Positions 24,708-41,627 of a DNA stretch of 64,000 nucleotides are shown piece after piece (within the stretch, counting starts at the first letter, position 1; each line of letters starts with the position of its first letter). This DNA comes from Actinoallomurus spadix (GTDB lineage Bacteria; Actinomycetota; Actinomycetes; Streptosporangiales; Streptosporangiaceae): assembly GCF_024055725.1 (NCBI RefSeq), contig NZ_JAMXMX010000022.1, forward strand, positions 1 to 64,000, read 5' to 3'. A program made the position numbers and the translations under genes. Under the pieces are notes generated by a model, which was not told the origin of the DNA, searched no databases, and saw only the letters and a program-made list of their open reading frames with translations.

Positions 24708-24833
24708 GCTCCGCGGCTGCCCGCTCCTTTCTTTTCGGCCGCCCGGAACTGAGCGTGTTCCCGCAGGTCGACCCATCGATCCCCGTCGGGGCGTACCGTC
24801 CGAGACAGCGAATGTCTCGTCACGGAGGCAACG

Positions 24834-24965
24834 ATGGGTCGGCACAGCGGCAAGGACAGCGACGACAAGGCCGGCGGCGACGGTAACAAGCCGCAGGGCG
24901 GTCGGCGTGGAACCGGCGGTGGTAACAGCGGGAACACGGGAGACGGGAACAACCCGGCGAAATGA
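24834..24965 (+). CDS. Putative RiPP precursor peptide (imiditide-like), 43 residues
   Basis: ATG 24834 has GGAGG six bases upstream; the stop overlaps the methyltransferase start as ATGA. The peptide is very hydrophilic: 14 Gly, 5 Asp, 5 Asn, 5 Lys, 3 Arg, no Cys and no hydrophobic stretch. It starts MGRHSGKDSDDK. It has two related motifs, GGDGNKP (residues 14-20) and TGDGNNP (35-41). Asp-Gly is the dipeptide most prone to succinimide formation and is the site methylated by RiPP-type PIMTs. The size, composition and tight coupling fit a precursor, but no product has been shown. The 126-bp gap before it shows no other gene. Confidence 0.7.
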   Translation: MGRHSGKDSDDKAGGDGNKPQGGRRGTGGGNSGNTGDGNNPAK

Positions 24966-26140
24966 GCGCGCCCGACGATCTCCCGCAGCGGATCGGCGAG
25001 TTGTGTGAAGACCTCGCAGCGGCCGGGTACCTGACTCGCACCGAGTGGCGGGAGGCGCTGCATGCGGTGCCGCGGCATCTGTTCGTCCCAGGGCGTGCGT
25101 GGGCGGAGCCGAACGGACCGGAGCCCGGATTCCTGATCGACCGGAACATCGACGAGGCCGCCTGGTGGGACGCGGTGTACGCCGACAACGCGATCATCAC
25201 GCAGCGGGACGACGGCGCGACGGACGTCGCCGAGGACGGGGTGCCGACGAGTTCGTGTTCGGCACCGGCCACGGTCGTCGAGTTCCTCGAGGCGTTGCAG
25301 CCGGAGGACCGCAACCGGGTGCTGGAGATCGGTACCGGCACCGGCTGGACGGCTGCCCTGCTCGCGCACCGCGTGGGCGCCGGCAACGTCGTCTCGGTCG
25401 AAGTCGACCCGGACGTCTCGGGGCAGGCGGCGAAGAACCTCACTGGGACGGCCCTGACACCGCGGCTGATCGTCGGTGACGGCACGTTCGGGTTCGAGGA
25501 GGGGGCGCCATTCGACCGTGTCCACGTCGCCGTCGGGGTCGCGGAAGTCCCGTTCGCGTGGGTGGAGCAGACCCGTCCCGGTGGTGTGATCGTCGCCCCG
25601 TACATGCCGGGCTACGGCTTCGGATGGCTCGCCCGCCTGCACGTCCTCGGAGACGGTACGGCGGTCGGCCGGTTCCCTGGCATGGCGGGATACATGATGC
25701 TTCGCGGGCAGCGCCCGGTTCGCGGCCCGGCGGGCGAATTCGTGCACGGCGACTTCACCGAGTCCACGACCCGGCTGGATCCGCGGCGTGTCGCCGAGGA
25801 CCACTCAGCCGATCTGGCGATCTCCGCCATGGTCCCGGGCATTCAGCGACGCATCTACTACGGCGAAGGCGAGGAAGCGGACGAGTGCACGGTCTGGATC
25901 CTCGAACGGGACATCCGCGAGGGTTCGTGGGCGTCAGTGGATTACGTCCCCGGTGACGCGGAGTTCGTGGTGCAGCAGCACGGAGAGCGGCGCCTGTGGG
26001 ACGAGGTCGAAACCGCGTATCTGCGGTGGCTGTCGTGGGGCCGGCCAGGCCTGGACCGGTTCGGGCTCACGGTGTCGCCTGGCGGCCGGCGAGTGTGGCT
26101 TGACGCCCCGGAGCGAATCGTCGCCCTGTCGGCGAGATGA
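24962..26140 (+). CDS. PIMT-family O-methyltransferase with long C-terminal extension
   Basis: 392 residues, against about 215 in housekeeping L-isoaspartate methyltransferases. The N-terminal half carries the PIMT core: ALHAVPRHLFVPGRAW, PTSSCSAPATVVEFLEALQP, motif I RVLEIGTGTGWTAALLA, VVSVEVDP and VGDGTFGFEEGAPFDRVHV. About 190 further residues (WILERDIREGSWASVDYV, YLRWLSWGRPGLDRFGL) are typical of PIMT homologues in RiPP clusters rather than of repair enzymes. The start overlaps the peptide gene, so peptide and enzyme are probably made together. Predicted chemistry: methylation of an Asp side chain, then cyclisation to aspartimide. No ATP-grasp, lanthionine or lasso gene is nearby. Confidence 0.85.
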   Translation: MSAPDDLPQRIGELCEDLAAAGYLTRTEWREALHAVPRHLFVPGRAWAEPNGPEPGFLIDRNIDEAAWWDAVYADNAIITQRDDGATDVAEDGVPTSSCSAPATVVEFLEALQPEDRNRVLEIGTGTGWTAALLAHRVGAGNVVSVEVDPDVSGQAAKNLTGTALTPRLIVGDGTFGFEEGAPFDRVHVAVGVAEVPFAWVEQTRPGGVIVAPYMPGYGFGWLARLHVLGDGTAVGRFPGMAGYMMLRGQRPVRGPAGEFVHGDFTESTTRLDPRRVAEDHSADLAISAMVPGIQRRIYYGEGEEADECTVWILERDIREGSWASVDYVPGDAEFVVQQHGERRLWDEVETAYLRWLSWGRPGLDRFGLTVSPGGRRVWLDAPERIVALSAR

Positions 26141-26397: not shown

Positions 26398-26901
26398 GTG
26401 ACGCAGACGACGATCACCCGGACCGGCGCCCATCGGCCCCGGCCGATCAGCTTCCTCACGCTGCACGAGTCGGCGGGCTGGCGGCTGAAGTTCTACGGCA
26501 TCGCCGCGGACGGCGGGCGCCCGCGGCCGGAGCTCGTCAGGACCGCCGAGCTGCTGGTCCCCACCGCGTTGCCGTACCCCGCGGCGCACAGCGGCGGCGA
26601 GGAGCCGCACGACGTGGACCGGTACGGCGTCGGTTTCGTCATCGTCCACGACGCCCCGGACTACGCCTACGCCCTCTACGACTGGTGGGCCGGGGAGAAC
26701 GAGATCCACCAGCGGATATTCTCGGCCCTGCCGAACCGGCTCGGCGCGATGCGGCCGCATCCGACGCCGGCCATCGGCTGCGTGTGGGAGCTGGCCGTCA
26801 CCGACTTCGAGCGGCGCGCCTGGCTGCGGCACGTCCTTGCCAACGACGAGGGCGCCGACATCGACGCCTACCTGGCCGAGCGGTTCGAGGGAGAGGTTTG
26901 A
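26398..26901 (+). CDS. Unrecognised protein coupled to a molybdopterin oxidoreductase
   Basis: 167 residues from GTG 26398 with AGGAGG upstream. I do not recognise the family. Segments such as SFLTLHESAGWRLKFYGIA, GVGFVIVHDAPDYAYALYDWW and PAIGCVWELAVTDFERRAW look like a globular alpha/beta protein without signal or membrane segments. Its stop overlaps the TTG start of the molybdoenzyme (TTGA), so the two are translated together and may act in one process. Confidence 0.8.
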   Translation: MTQTTITRTGAHRPRPISFLTLHESAGWRLKFYGIAADGGRPRPELVRTAELLVPTALPYPAAHSGGEEPHDVDRYGVGFVIVHDAPDYAYALYDWWAGENEIHQRIFSALPNRLGAMRPHPTPAIGCVWELAVTDFERRAWLRHVLANDEGADIDAYLAERFEGEV

Positions 26902-39273: not shown

Positions 39274-39864
39274 TCAGTCCTCCCGGTTCCGGACGGTGAC
39301 GCGCACGTGCGGCGGGCGCAGCGGGGCGAGTTCCCGGAGCCGTCCGGTGACGGCCCGCTCCACCTGCTCGGGCAGCCCGCGGGGATCGCGGAGAGGGCTC
39401 GCCGCCTGGACCCGTACCCCGCCGCGCCGGAGCCGGACACGCGCCCGGGTCACGCCGTCGACGTTCCGGGCGGCCTGGGCGAGCTGCCGCCGGAGCCCCG
39501 CCGCCGTGATGCCCACGACCACGTCGGGGTCGTCGAAGGCCAGCGCGATGACCCGCGGGCGGCCGGGCCACAGCGCGAGCAGGATCAGCAGCAGCCCGAG
39601 CACCGCGAGCAGGCACGCCACGGCCAGTGCCAGCGGATCGGCCCAGCGCGTGGCGCGTCCGAGGCCCGCCAGGTACGGCACCGGCAGCACGCTCCCCGAC
39701 CGGGGGGACAGCAGGGAGGTGATCACCTCGACCGCGATGAGAAAGGCGGCGGCGGCCAGCGCGGCCGCCGCCAGGACGGCCGGGACGGCGCGGCGGGGCC
39801 GGAACACGCGCCGTCCGCCGCGGCGGGACACCGCGGGCGGCCGCTCCCGCTCCGAGGCGGTCAC
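39274..39864 (-). CDS. DUF6286-type membrane protein of the Asp23 operon
   Basis: 196 residues from GTG 39864, which overlaps the preceding stop as GTGA. Arg-rich N-terminus, two membrane helices (VLAAAALAAAAFLIAVEVI; LALAVACLLAVLGLLLILLA) and a C-terminal Asp23-like alpha/beta domain (GITAAGLRRQLAQAARNVDG). Common in actinobacterial Asp23 clusters. Function unknown, probably envelope-associated. Confidence 0.75.
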   Translation of the reverse strand: MTASERERPPAVSRRGGRRVFRPRRAVPAVLAAAALAAAAFLIAVEVITSLLSPRSGSVLPVPYLAGLGRATRWADPLALAVACLLAVLGLLLILLALWPGRPRVIALAFDDPDVVVGITAAGLRRQLAQAARNVDGVTRARVRLRRGGVRVQAASPLRDPRGLPEQVERAVTGRLRELAPLRPPHVRVTVRNRED

Positions 39865-40265
39865 AGCGGACGCTCGCCGGCCGGCCCGGGCGGCGTCAGC
39901 CGGGCGATGTCGATGTCGACCTGGCGCACCCGCAGGCCGGTCAGCTCCCCTACGCGGGCCATGACATGGGCCCGCAGGGTCTGGGTCACCTGCCGCACCG
40001 GCGCCGGGTAGACGACGGAGACGCGCATCCGCAGCGCCGCCAGCCCGCCGTCGACGCGGGCCTTCACGCGGGGCCCGGTGGCCGCCGGACCCCGCGTGAA
40101 GGGCAGGCCCGCGTGCCGCTCGCCGGCCCCGGCGATCCCGCCGACCTCGGTCAGCGCGCGGAACGCTATCTTCTCCACCACCCGGGCGCCGATCACGGTG
40201 CGGCCGCGGGTCTCCTCCGCGGCGACGCGCTCCGCAGCCGCGGGCGCCGGAGGCGCGGAGCTCAC
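39861..40265 (-). CDS. Asp23/Gls24 family protein
   Basis: 134 residues from GTG 40265, overlapping the previous stop. The Asp23 pattern is visible: VIGARVVEKIAFRALTEVGG, VKARVDGGLAALRMRVSVVY, VTQTLRAHVMARVGELTGLR and VRQVDIDIARL. Asp23 proteins lie under the membrane and respond to envelope stress. Confidence 0.85.
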   Translation of the reverse strand: MSSAPPAPAAAERVAAEETRGRTVIGARVVEKIAFRALTEVGGIAGAGERHAGLPFTRGPAATGPRVKARVDGGLAALRMRVSVVYPAPVRQVTQTLRAHVMARVGELTGLRVRQVDIDIARLTPPGPAGERPL

Positions 40266-41009: not shown

Positions 41010-41482
41010 TGGACCCGCGGCTCGGCCGGCTCGGCTTCTTCTTCGTCCGGGAGGTGAACGTCGCCGACGGTGATGTTGACCTCGGTGACCTCCAGGCCGC
41101 ACATCTTCTCCACGGCGGTGATGACGTTGCGCCGCACGCCGTTGGCGAGATCGGGGATGGACACCCCGTACTCGACGATCATGTCCAGGTCGATCGCGGT
41201 CTGCCGCTCGCCCACCTCGACCATGACGCCCCGGGTGACGCTCTGGCCGCCGGCCCGGGGAAGGCGTTCGCGGACGGCCCCGACCGCGCGGGACAGGCCC
41301 GAGCCCATCGCGTACACCCCCGGGACCTCGCGGGTCGCCATGCCGGCGACCTTGGCGACGACCGCGTCCGCGATCGACGTCCTGCCGTGCTCGCCGACCA
41401 GCTCACTGCCCGTCCGGGCGCTCACCGCACCCTTCGGCTCGGAGACCGCCGAGGTCGTCTTCCCACTCTCCGCCGCGCTCAT
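41006..41482 (-). CDS. Asp23/Gls24 family envelope stress response protein
   Basis: 158 residues. First gene of the operon, with GGGAGG before ATG 41482. Asp23 core: GRTSIADAVVAKVAGMATRE, VPGVYAMGSG, MVEVGERQTAIDLDMIVEYG, VITAVEKMCGLEVTEVNITV. The N-terminal 30 residues are polar and disordered-looking. A sigma-B-like promoter lies 90 bp upstream, consistent with stress induction of the seven-gene operon. Confidence 0.9.
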   Translation of the reverse strand: MSAAESGKTTSAVSEPKGAVSARTGSELVGEHGRTSIADAVVAKVAGMATREVPGVYAMGSGLSRAVGAVRERLPRAGGQSVTRGVMVEVGERQTAIDLDMIVEYGVSIPDLANGVRRNVITAVEKMCGLEVTEVNITVGDVHLPDEEEAEPAEPRVQ

Positions 41483-41570
41483 GTGGCCTCCCTTCCCGGC
41501 GAGACGTGCGCACAGGTCGCACCGGTCCCGCGACGGCCACTGCCGGGTTCGCCCCCTGTCAGGGCTCGCC

Positions 41571-41595
41571 CTACCCACAGCAATAACGGACAAAC
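41571..41595 (-). promoter_or_regulatory. Sigma-B-like promoter of the Asp23 operon
   Basis: On the minus strand GTTTGT (41595-41590), a 13-bp spacer and GGGTAG (41576-41571) match the GTTT-N13-15-GGGTA pattern of sigma-B-type stress promoters. The same elements and spacing recur at 54680-54704. Confidence 0.55.
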
Positions 41596-41627
41596 CGCCC
41601 AGACGACCGCGACTCGCCCAGGGGTGA

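Follow-up and report, generated by a model that had tools for sequence, protein, structure and literature searches.

A probable two-gene imiditide (type I pamtide) locus in Actinoallomurus spadix whose precursor carries two conserved candidate aspartate sites

The original paper on imiditides is said to come from the Link group. Pamtides are defined in PMC10787088 by two-gene clusters in which a small precursor is paired with a PIMT homologue, and the type I class is described as having over 1,400 members (PMC10787088, PMC13001092). In the SpaA/SpaM and NmaA/NmaM systems, the aspartimide is formed on linear precursors (PMC10787088, PMC13001092). One modified Asp is described in the imiditide examples of PMC13001092, which also names WxxxGxP, together with a C-terminal extension, as a motif of RiPP PIMTs and states the biological role of imiditides as an open question. 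According to PMC10787088, type I precursors contain on average 17.3% Gly, 16.8% Pro and 10.2% Asp, and the C-terminally extended PIMT of T. maritima (PDB 1DL5) is the solved member of this extended-PIMT clade.

Here we describe a locus on a 64,000-nucleotide stretch of Actinoallomurus spadix DNA, referred to below as the window, which is very probably a two-gene imiditide or type I pamtide cluster. As such, it is a member of an already published class and not a new class. What is possibly new, judging from the sequences compared here, is a precursor subfamily with two fixed candidate Asp sites, subsequently called the PQGG subfamily, and even this may already be among the published type I members. 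The features of the locus are as follows:

24824 to 24828, + strand: GGAGG, ribosome-binding site of the peptide gene, 5 nt 5' of the ATG (from the sequence)
24834 to 24965, + strand: 43-aa precursor, PQGG subfamily of putative imiditide / type I pamtide precursors (one of 19 full-length members, all of which adjoin a PIMT gene or remnant)
24879 to 24881, + strand: codon of Asp16, first candidate modification site (D-G-N-K-P-Q-G-G-R-R-G; Asp invariant in 19/19, followed by Gly in 18 and Ser in 1)
24942 to 24944, + strand: codon of Asp37 in the C-terminal extension, second candidate site (N-T-G-D-G-N-N-P; Asp-Gly invariant in 19/19)
24962 to 24965, + strand: ATGA stop/start overlap of the peptide and PIMT genes (from the sequence)
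24962 to 26140, + strand: 392-aa PIMT homologue (PAMT), predicted peptide aspartyl O-methyltransferase with a C-terminal domain (from family scores, tree, motif and model)
25331 to 25348, + strand: GTGTGW, residues 124-129, SAM-binding motif (Gly124, Gly126 and Gly128 invariant in 21 aligned sequences)
26027 to 26047, + strand: WLSWGRP, residues 356-362, WxxxGxP motif of RiPP PIMTs (from motif counts across enzyme groups)

The precursor ORF begins with ATG and encodes MGRHSGKDSDDKAGGDGNKPQGGRRGTGGGNSGNTGDGNNPAK, a peptide rich in Gly, Asp, Asn and Lys that contains 14 Gly, 5 Asp and 2 Pro among its 43 residues. Its Gly and Asp contents fit the published type I means, but its Pro content does not. 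Family-model searches gave no match for the peptide. The original prediction had described a 43-residue peptide with a strong ribosome-binding site whose gene overlaps that of a 392-residue PIMT homologue in an ATGA, and the coordinates and the GGAGG bear this out. Purine-rich sites also lie 5' of the 18 other PQGG-subfamily peptide genes. The peptide stop codon falls within ATGA or GTGA in 16 of the 19 members (the start of the relatives' enzymes at that point is inferred), which points to coupled translation; the ATGA overlap in the window is thus probably a translational coupling.

To see how often such a peptide gene accompanies the enzyme, we assembled 96 PIMT rows after duplicate removal and dropped one partial row (L046, minus strand). 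The remaining 95 loci sample the nearest homologues, of which more than 100 matches exist; two loci that seem to carry tandem PIMTs (L090 and L099) were each counted once. As a strict detector we required a length of 28-70 aa, G/D/P/K/N as at least half of the residues, at least two Asp, a ribosome-binding site and few hydrophobic residues. It found a small ORF directly upstream of the PIMT gene in 66/95 loci, versus 4 of 1623 positions drawn at random from the same DNA. Among the 29 strict misses, a relaxed detector recovered five more clear precursors (L098, L108, L120, L032, L019). Those of L063 and L121 look frame-broken, and a candidate at L122 was excluded from the count because it falls inside the PIMT gene. 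The remaining 22 loci have no peptide even with the relaxed detector, and ten of them form one clade. Some precursor-less loci (L110, L058, L125) sit among PQGG-bearing enzymes in the tree, so this branch of enzymes does not strictly depend on an adjacent precursor. Homologues that consistently lack a DG-containing peptide upstream had been named as a refuting outcome; an Asp-containing peptide is instead the usual, though not universal, arrangement.

The ten precursor-less enzymes (L043, L045, L050, L051, L052, L053, L061, L087, L091 and L102) group with an SH-aLRT support of 100 within the pamtide-type enzymes. They come from one genus, three of them being Actinomadura, and no precursor-like ORF was found upstream or downstream of their PIMT genes. 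In eight of the ten, the opposite strand downstream carries a ferritin-like gene of about 155 aa, part of which is also present at the edge of the sequence in L053. These ferritin-like proteins are about 77-90% identical to each other; the Pfam assignment comes from L043 only.

A profile of the peptide was then run against 341 genomes of the same family. It gave 22 matches, of which 19 were full-length (E 1.7e-5 or better) in 18 genomes belonging to 3 of the 68 genera searched. Since the profile had been built from 15 of these 19 peptides, only four of them (L156, L162, L168 and L172) are independent finds. All 19 directly precede a PIMT gene or its remnant; L156 has only a short remnant, and the L162 match is split over two frames. 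The three weak matches (E 0.004-0.007) have no PIMT beside them. In 394 genomes drawn from the class, the profile matched the window's own genome only. Related loci occur in Actinomadura, Microbispora, Streptomyces and others, which makes Streptosporangiaceae the probable family. Four of the loci compared seem to be damaged or mis-assembled: the PIMT is cut down to a short match in L156, its match is split over two frames in L162, and the precursor frame is apparently broken in L063 and L121.

The PQGG peptides are also conserved at the amino-acid level. The eight closest pairs have dN/dS values of 0.11-0.38, and 16 of the 22 closest pairs listed lie below 0.4; the other six range from 0.66 to 3.6, with few silent changes. 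Over all 171 pairs the median pN/pS is 0.67, many of these pairs being saturated. On the strength of the upstream ORF enrichment, the profile matches beside PIMT genes and the dN/dS values, we rejected a chance ORF.

An alignment of the 19 PQGG peptides showed that Asp10, Asp16 and Asp37-Gly38 are invariant. The first site reads D[GS]xxP[QG]GG in 19/19 (Asp-Gly in 18, Asp-Ser in 1), and the second reads NxxDG in 19/19, followed by a Pro at +4 of the Asp in just five. In the window peptide, Asp16 and Asp37 each lie within GDGN-x-P, as the original prediction had noticed. This literal double motif is unique to the window among the 75 precursors collected, so it holds for this peptide but not as a trait of the subfamily, which keeps D[GS]xxP[QG]GG and the C-terminal NxxDG instead. 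Pro makes up 5.5% of the residues in the subfamily, versus 13.8% in the 56 other precursors. The mere number of DG dipeptides is not distinctive: 21 of these 56 have at least two and 19 have none. The hallmark of the PQGG type is rather the fixed placing of its DG sites.

This placing becomes apparent relative to an anchor, GG-x-[RKH], that is found in 24 of the 56 other precursors and is absent in 32. The 24 anchored precursors end a median of 2 residues past the anchor (0-9 residues in 23/24, counted from the last anchor), whereas the PQGG peptides continue for 15-17 residues past the first anchor. At least 12 residues follow the anchor in 19/19 PQGG peptides versus 2/24 others by the first-anchor rule, and in 17/19 versus 1/24 by the last-anchor rule. 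A DG past the anchor is present in 19/19 versus 2/24 (L055 and L095) under either rule; the L095 precursor is close to the PQGG type. Since the other precursors end soon after the anchor, Asp16 appears to stand at the usual place and Asp37 in an extension.

A resemblance to this extension was found in Streptomyces precursors (L025-L030) whose PIMTs form a clade outside the 74-row clade of the window enzyme: they contain GNTNDGQGPA where the window peptide has GNTGDGNNPA. Compared with the PQGG set, the four distinct versions were matched by 0, 0, 0 and 2 of 400 shuffles, with 54 precursors tested. Compared with the window peptide alone, 4-12 of 400 shuffles were as good, and two precursors without such a motif (L117 and L103) also beat all shuffles. 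In the six Streptomyces species concerned, the last 34 precursor residues (GNPQDDSDSGNKHGGGGSDEGGNTNDGQGPADGR) are identical, while the N-termini differ.

We examined the enzyme by family models, motifs and structure prediction. Pfam PF01135 (PCMT) matches the 392-aa protein with 101.5 bits. The best family model is NCBIfam TIGR04188, the methyltransferase of ATP-grasp peptide systems, with 305 bits over residues 14-377, which is below its own cut-off of 380 bits. The housekeeping PIMT models NF001453 (97.9 bits, cut-off 188) and TIGR00080 (86.9 bits, cut-off 159) score far lower than they require, as does the FxLD-type model TIGR04364 (116 bits, cut-off 320). The WxxxGxP motif is conserved in 15/15 PQGG enzymes, 48/51 other precursor-bearing enzymes, 27/29 enzymes with no precursor and 9/11 graspetide PIMTs, but in 0/12 FxLD enzymes.

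An AlphaFold model of the enzyme, for which 20 homologues were supplied, reached a pLDDT of 89.5 and a pTM of 0.90. Among PDB structures, 1DL5 matches it best, over 386 columns of the alignment (TM-score 0.52 by query and 0.63 by target); the rmsd of 7.9 means that the two domains superpose only loosely. Precursor recognition in the class is ascribed to charge-charge contacts with the C-terminal domain, and that domain of the window enzyme contains an acidic stretch, GEGEEADE. The mean net acidity of the aligned C-terminal segment, in what is a loose alignment, is 2.8 for PQGG enzymes, 1.8 for other precursor-bearing enzymes, 1.66 for those with no precursor and 1.36 for graspetide PIMTs. One locus (L037) is absent from one of the alignments (A2).

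In a tree of 118 enzymes, computed by a quick method with SH-aLRT support only, the window enzyme falls into a 74-row clade (support 99) that comprises 48 precursor-bearing enzymes including itself, 25 without a detected precursor and one from a graspetide locus. The FxLD enzymes form one separate clade (support 100). Ten of the 11 graspetide PIMTs branch elsewhere, a twelfth (L128) having been removed for its split alignment. Clustering with housekeeping repair PIMTs had been named as an outcome that would speak against a RiPP enzyme. Instead, in this tree, which covers pamtide-type, graspetide and FxLD enzymes but no canonical repair PIMT, the enzyme groups with pamtide-type PIMTs, and it scores far under the housekeeping cut-offs. 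The PQGG precursor type needs five changes on the enzyme tree and is thus not a single clean lineage. Its scattering would reflect either an old type that was lost in places or an exchange of precursors.

A small clade inside the pamtide-type enzymes (L014, L122 and L138, support 99) joins two enzymes without a detected precursor, L014 and L122, to an ATP-grasp-associated PIMT, L138, that is 46% identical to the window enzyme. It is possible that this clade records a switch between pamtide and graspetide use.

The surroundings of the gene pair are ordinary. Pfam searches with 20 ORFs from 12.4 to 42.3 kb and three nearer ones revealed an ordinary set of metabolic and regulatory genes: TetR and MmyB-like regulators, enoyl-CoA hydratase, globin-oxidoreductase, ROK, MGH1-like hydrolase, GNAT, RsgA, alpha/beta hydrolase, SDR, molybdopterin oxidoreductase, amidohydrolase, anthranilate synthase, SSF transporter and a UvrA-like ATPase. 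No ATP-grasp, YcaO, LanC, radical-SAM or lasso-enzyme match was found among these 23 ORFs, in agreement with the earlier remark that no other RiPP enzyme lies nearby, and none of the 23 looked like a protease or exporter dedicated to the peptide. Three of them have no match at all (26398-26901, 39307-40011 and 41070-41627). The 167-aa ORF at 26398-26901 lies directly downstream of the PIMT gene; Pfam gave nothing for it at E 1 or better, and NCBIfam only a match at chance level (E 0.19). No neighbouring gene is common to all PQGG loci. An Rfam scan of the window gave no matches, and a promoter and terminator scan gave no sites.

The same genome contains two more precursor/PIMT pairs, on C66 (MGRHGTGGDERDG...) and C44 (MGKHSRPDPPP...), and, on contigs C1 and C16, two enzymes of the FxLD type. 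At 18 of the 95 PIMT loci, an HTH regulator with DUF5753 is encoded less than 1.5 kb away (L003, L010, L030, L037, L041, L048, L051, L063, L089, L095, L096, L100, L101, L107, L111, L118, L121 and L126), against a background of 602 copies in 12 genomes, or about one per 170 kb. However, 3 of 24 graspetide/FxLD loci also have such a regulator, so the association is not pamtide-specific, and the related loci are not independent of each other. DUF6879 and a HATPase gene also recur near PIMT loci. None occurs in the window.

We propose a mechanism for this locus by analogy to the characterised relatives SpaM and NmaM, which are our basis for its chemistry, modification site and recognition mode. 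Peptide and enzyme would be translated as one coupled unit. The PIMT homologue would bind the linear peptide, probably via its extra C-terminal domain, and methylate the side chain of an Asp with SAM. The following backbone nitrogen would then expel methanol, leaving an aspartimide (-18 Da) open to hydrolysis to isoaspartate or aspartate. The likeliest site would be Asp16 in the D-x-x-x-P-Q-G-G-x-R-G module, with Asp37-Gly38 in the subfamily-specific C-terminal extension acting as a second site or as part of a recognition tail. The prediction of an imiditide-like, stand-alone precursor/PIMT unit agrees with the gene pair, the RiPP-type C-terminal domain and the grouping in the tree, its chemistry being carried over from those relatives.

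Which Asp would be modified can be weighed from the conservation of the two sites; the weights given here are our judgements, not computed values, and those of the three site readings add up to our confidence in the class assignment. That Asp16 alone is modified, with the C-terminal NxxDG serving as a recognition tail that retains its Asp for binding, is a serious candidate to which we give somewhat under an even chance. This reading draws on the position of Asp16, since 23/24 other anchored precursors end 0-9 residues past the last anchor, and on PMC13001092, where each lanthi-, lassi-, graspi- and cysimiditide PIMT is described as recognising a single Asp. C-terminal residues of SpaA and NmaA are also reported to matter for modification (PMC10787088, PMC13001092). 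However, Asp37-Gly38 is as invariant as Asp16 in the 19 members, and a demand for Asp-Gly would be unexpected of a pure charge tail. The register itself is only partly supported, as 32 of the 56 other precursors have no anchor. A two-site imiditide, in which a single PIMT turns both Asp16 and Asp37 into aspartimide or isoaspartate, we regard as possible but rather doubtful. It seems unlikely that Asp37 is the main site and Asp16 merely part of the recognition region. Gly follows Asp37 in 19/19 members and Asp16 in 18/19, and GNTNDGQGPA of the Streptomyces precursors resembles the surroundings of Asp37, with 0, 0, 0 and 2 of 400 shuffles doing as well against the PQGG set. Yet the D-x-x-x-P-[QG]GG module at Asp16 is equally conserved, and the C-terminal part of other type I precursors looks similar to it; Pro at +4 of Asp37 is limited to 5/19. 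The Streptomyces resemblance also fades when only the window peptide is compared (4-12 of 400 shuffles do as well), and of the 54 precursors tested, L117 and L103 outscored every shuffle too, without having the motif.

Outside the class altogether, the PIMT might act on its own in protein modification or repair, the small ORF then being a regulatory leader or an antitoxin-like peptide. The clade of ten related PIMTs with no peptide up- or downstream would fit this, as would a small peptide without a family match. But the amino acids of the peptide are conserved, as its invariant columns in 19 members show and the 16 pairs with dN/dS below 0.4 among the 22 closest ones listed, and the enzyme carries a RiPP-type C-terminal domain. 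We therefore consider this explanation very improbable and retain the imiditide assignment.

PMC13001092 describes a single Asp for lanthi-, lassi-, graspi- and cysimiditide PIMTs and in its imiditide examples, so a doubly modified product, if true, would be a new variant. A search of full-text literature for double aspartimides did not find 'two aspartimides' in the texts it covered and found 'doubly modified' once, in a paper on a graspetide synthetase. The two-site reading, if true, would bear on whether the enzyme recognises the immediate surroundings of its site (D-G-x-x-P) or how far that site lies from the tail. With a compact two-gene locus, two Asp-Gly sites (one Asp-Ser exception) and 19 members in three genera, the PQGG loci offer a clean test of site choice by RiPP PIMTs and of whether one linear peptide can take two modifications.

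Among known systems, repair PIMTs (E. coli Pcm, PDB 3LBF; T. maritima 1DL5) have the same catalytic fold. The window enzyme is, as predicted, nearly twice the length of a repair enzyme (392 versus about 210 aa for 3LBF). 1DL5, its best solved whole-length match, likewise has a C-terminal extension. A repair PIMT was rejected on account of the length, the scores below both housekeeping cut-offs and the RiPP-type C-terminal domain. An anti-phage system was also rejected, the only match being one of 52.7 bits to mad2 over the methyltransferase region. FxLD lanthipeptide methyltransferases (TIGR04364) have the PIMT catalytic domain in common with the window enzyme, but they form a separate clade without WxxxGxP (0/12); the model scores 116 bits against a required 320, and the FxLD enzymes of this genome are the two on C1 and C16. 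An FxLD lanthipeptide system was accordingly rejected. Graspetide PIMTs (TIGR04188, graspimiditides) are the same two-domain enzyme, but their clusters have an ATP-grasp macrocyclase. None is present among the tested neighbours here, and across the genome the search for a graspetide ATP-grasp gave at best a partial match of 69 bits on another contig, so this assignment was rejected as well. Cysimiditides or type II pamtides (FcaA, TceA*, NalA) follow the same precursor and PIMT logic, but their precursors have two CXXCXGXG motifs around the modified Asp. The window peptide contains no Cys, and this type was rejected. The closest relatives are the imiditides NmaA-NmaM of Nonomuraea maritima and SpaA-SpaM of Streptomyces sparsogenes. 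They are the same two-gene unit, with a G/D/K-rich linear precursor of about 45 aa and the same PIMT with a C-terminal domain and WxxxGxP, and no other RiPP enzyme was found among the tested neighbours here. Compared with NmaA and SpaA by their published descriptions rather than their sequences, the window precursor is Pro-poor and carries a C-terminal extension of 15-17 residues with a second invariant Asp-Gly.
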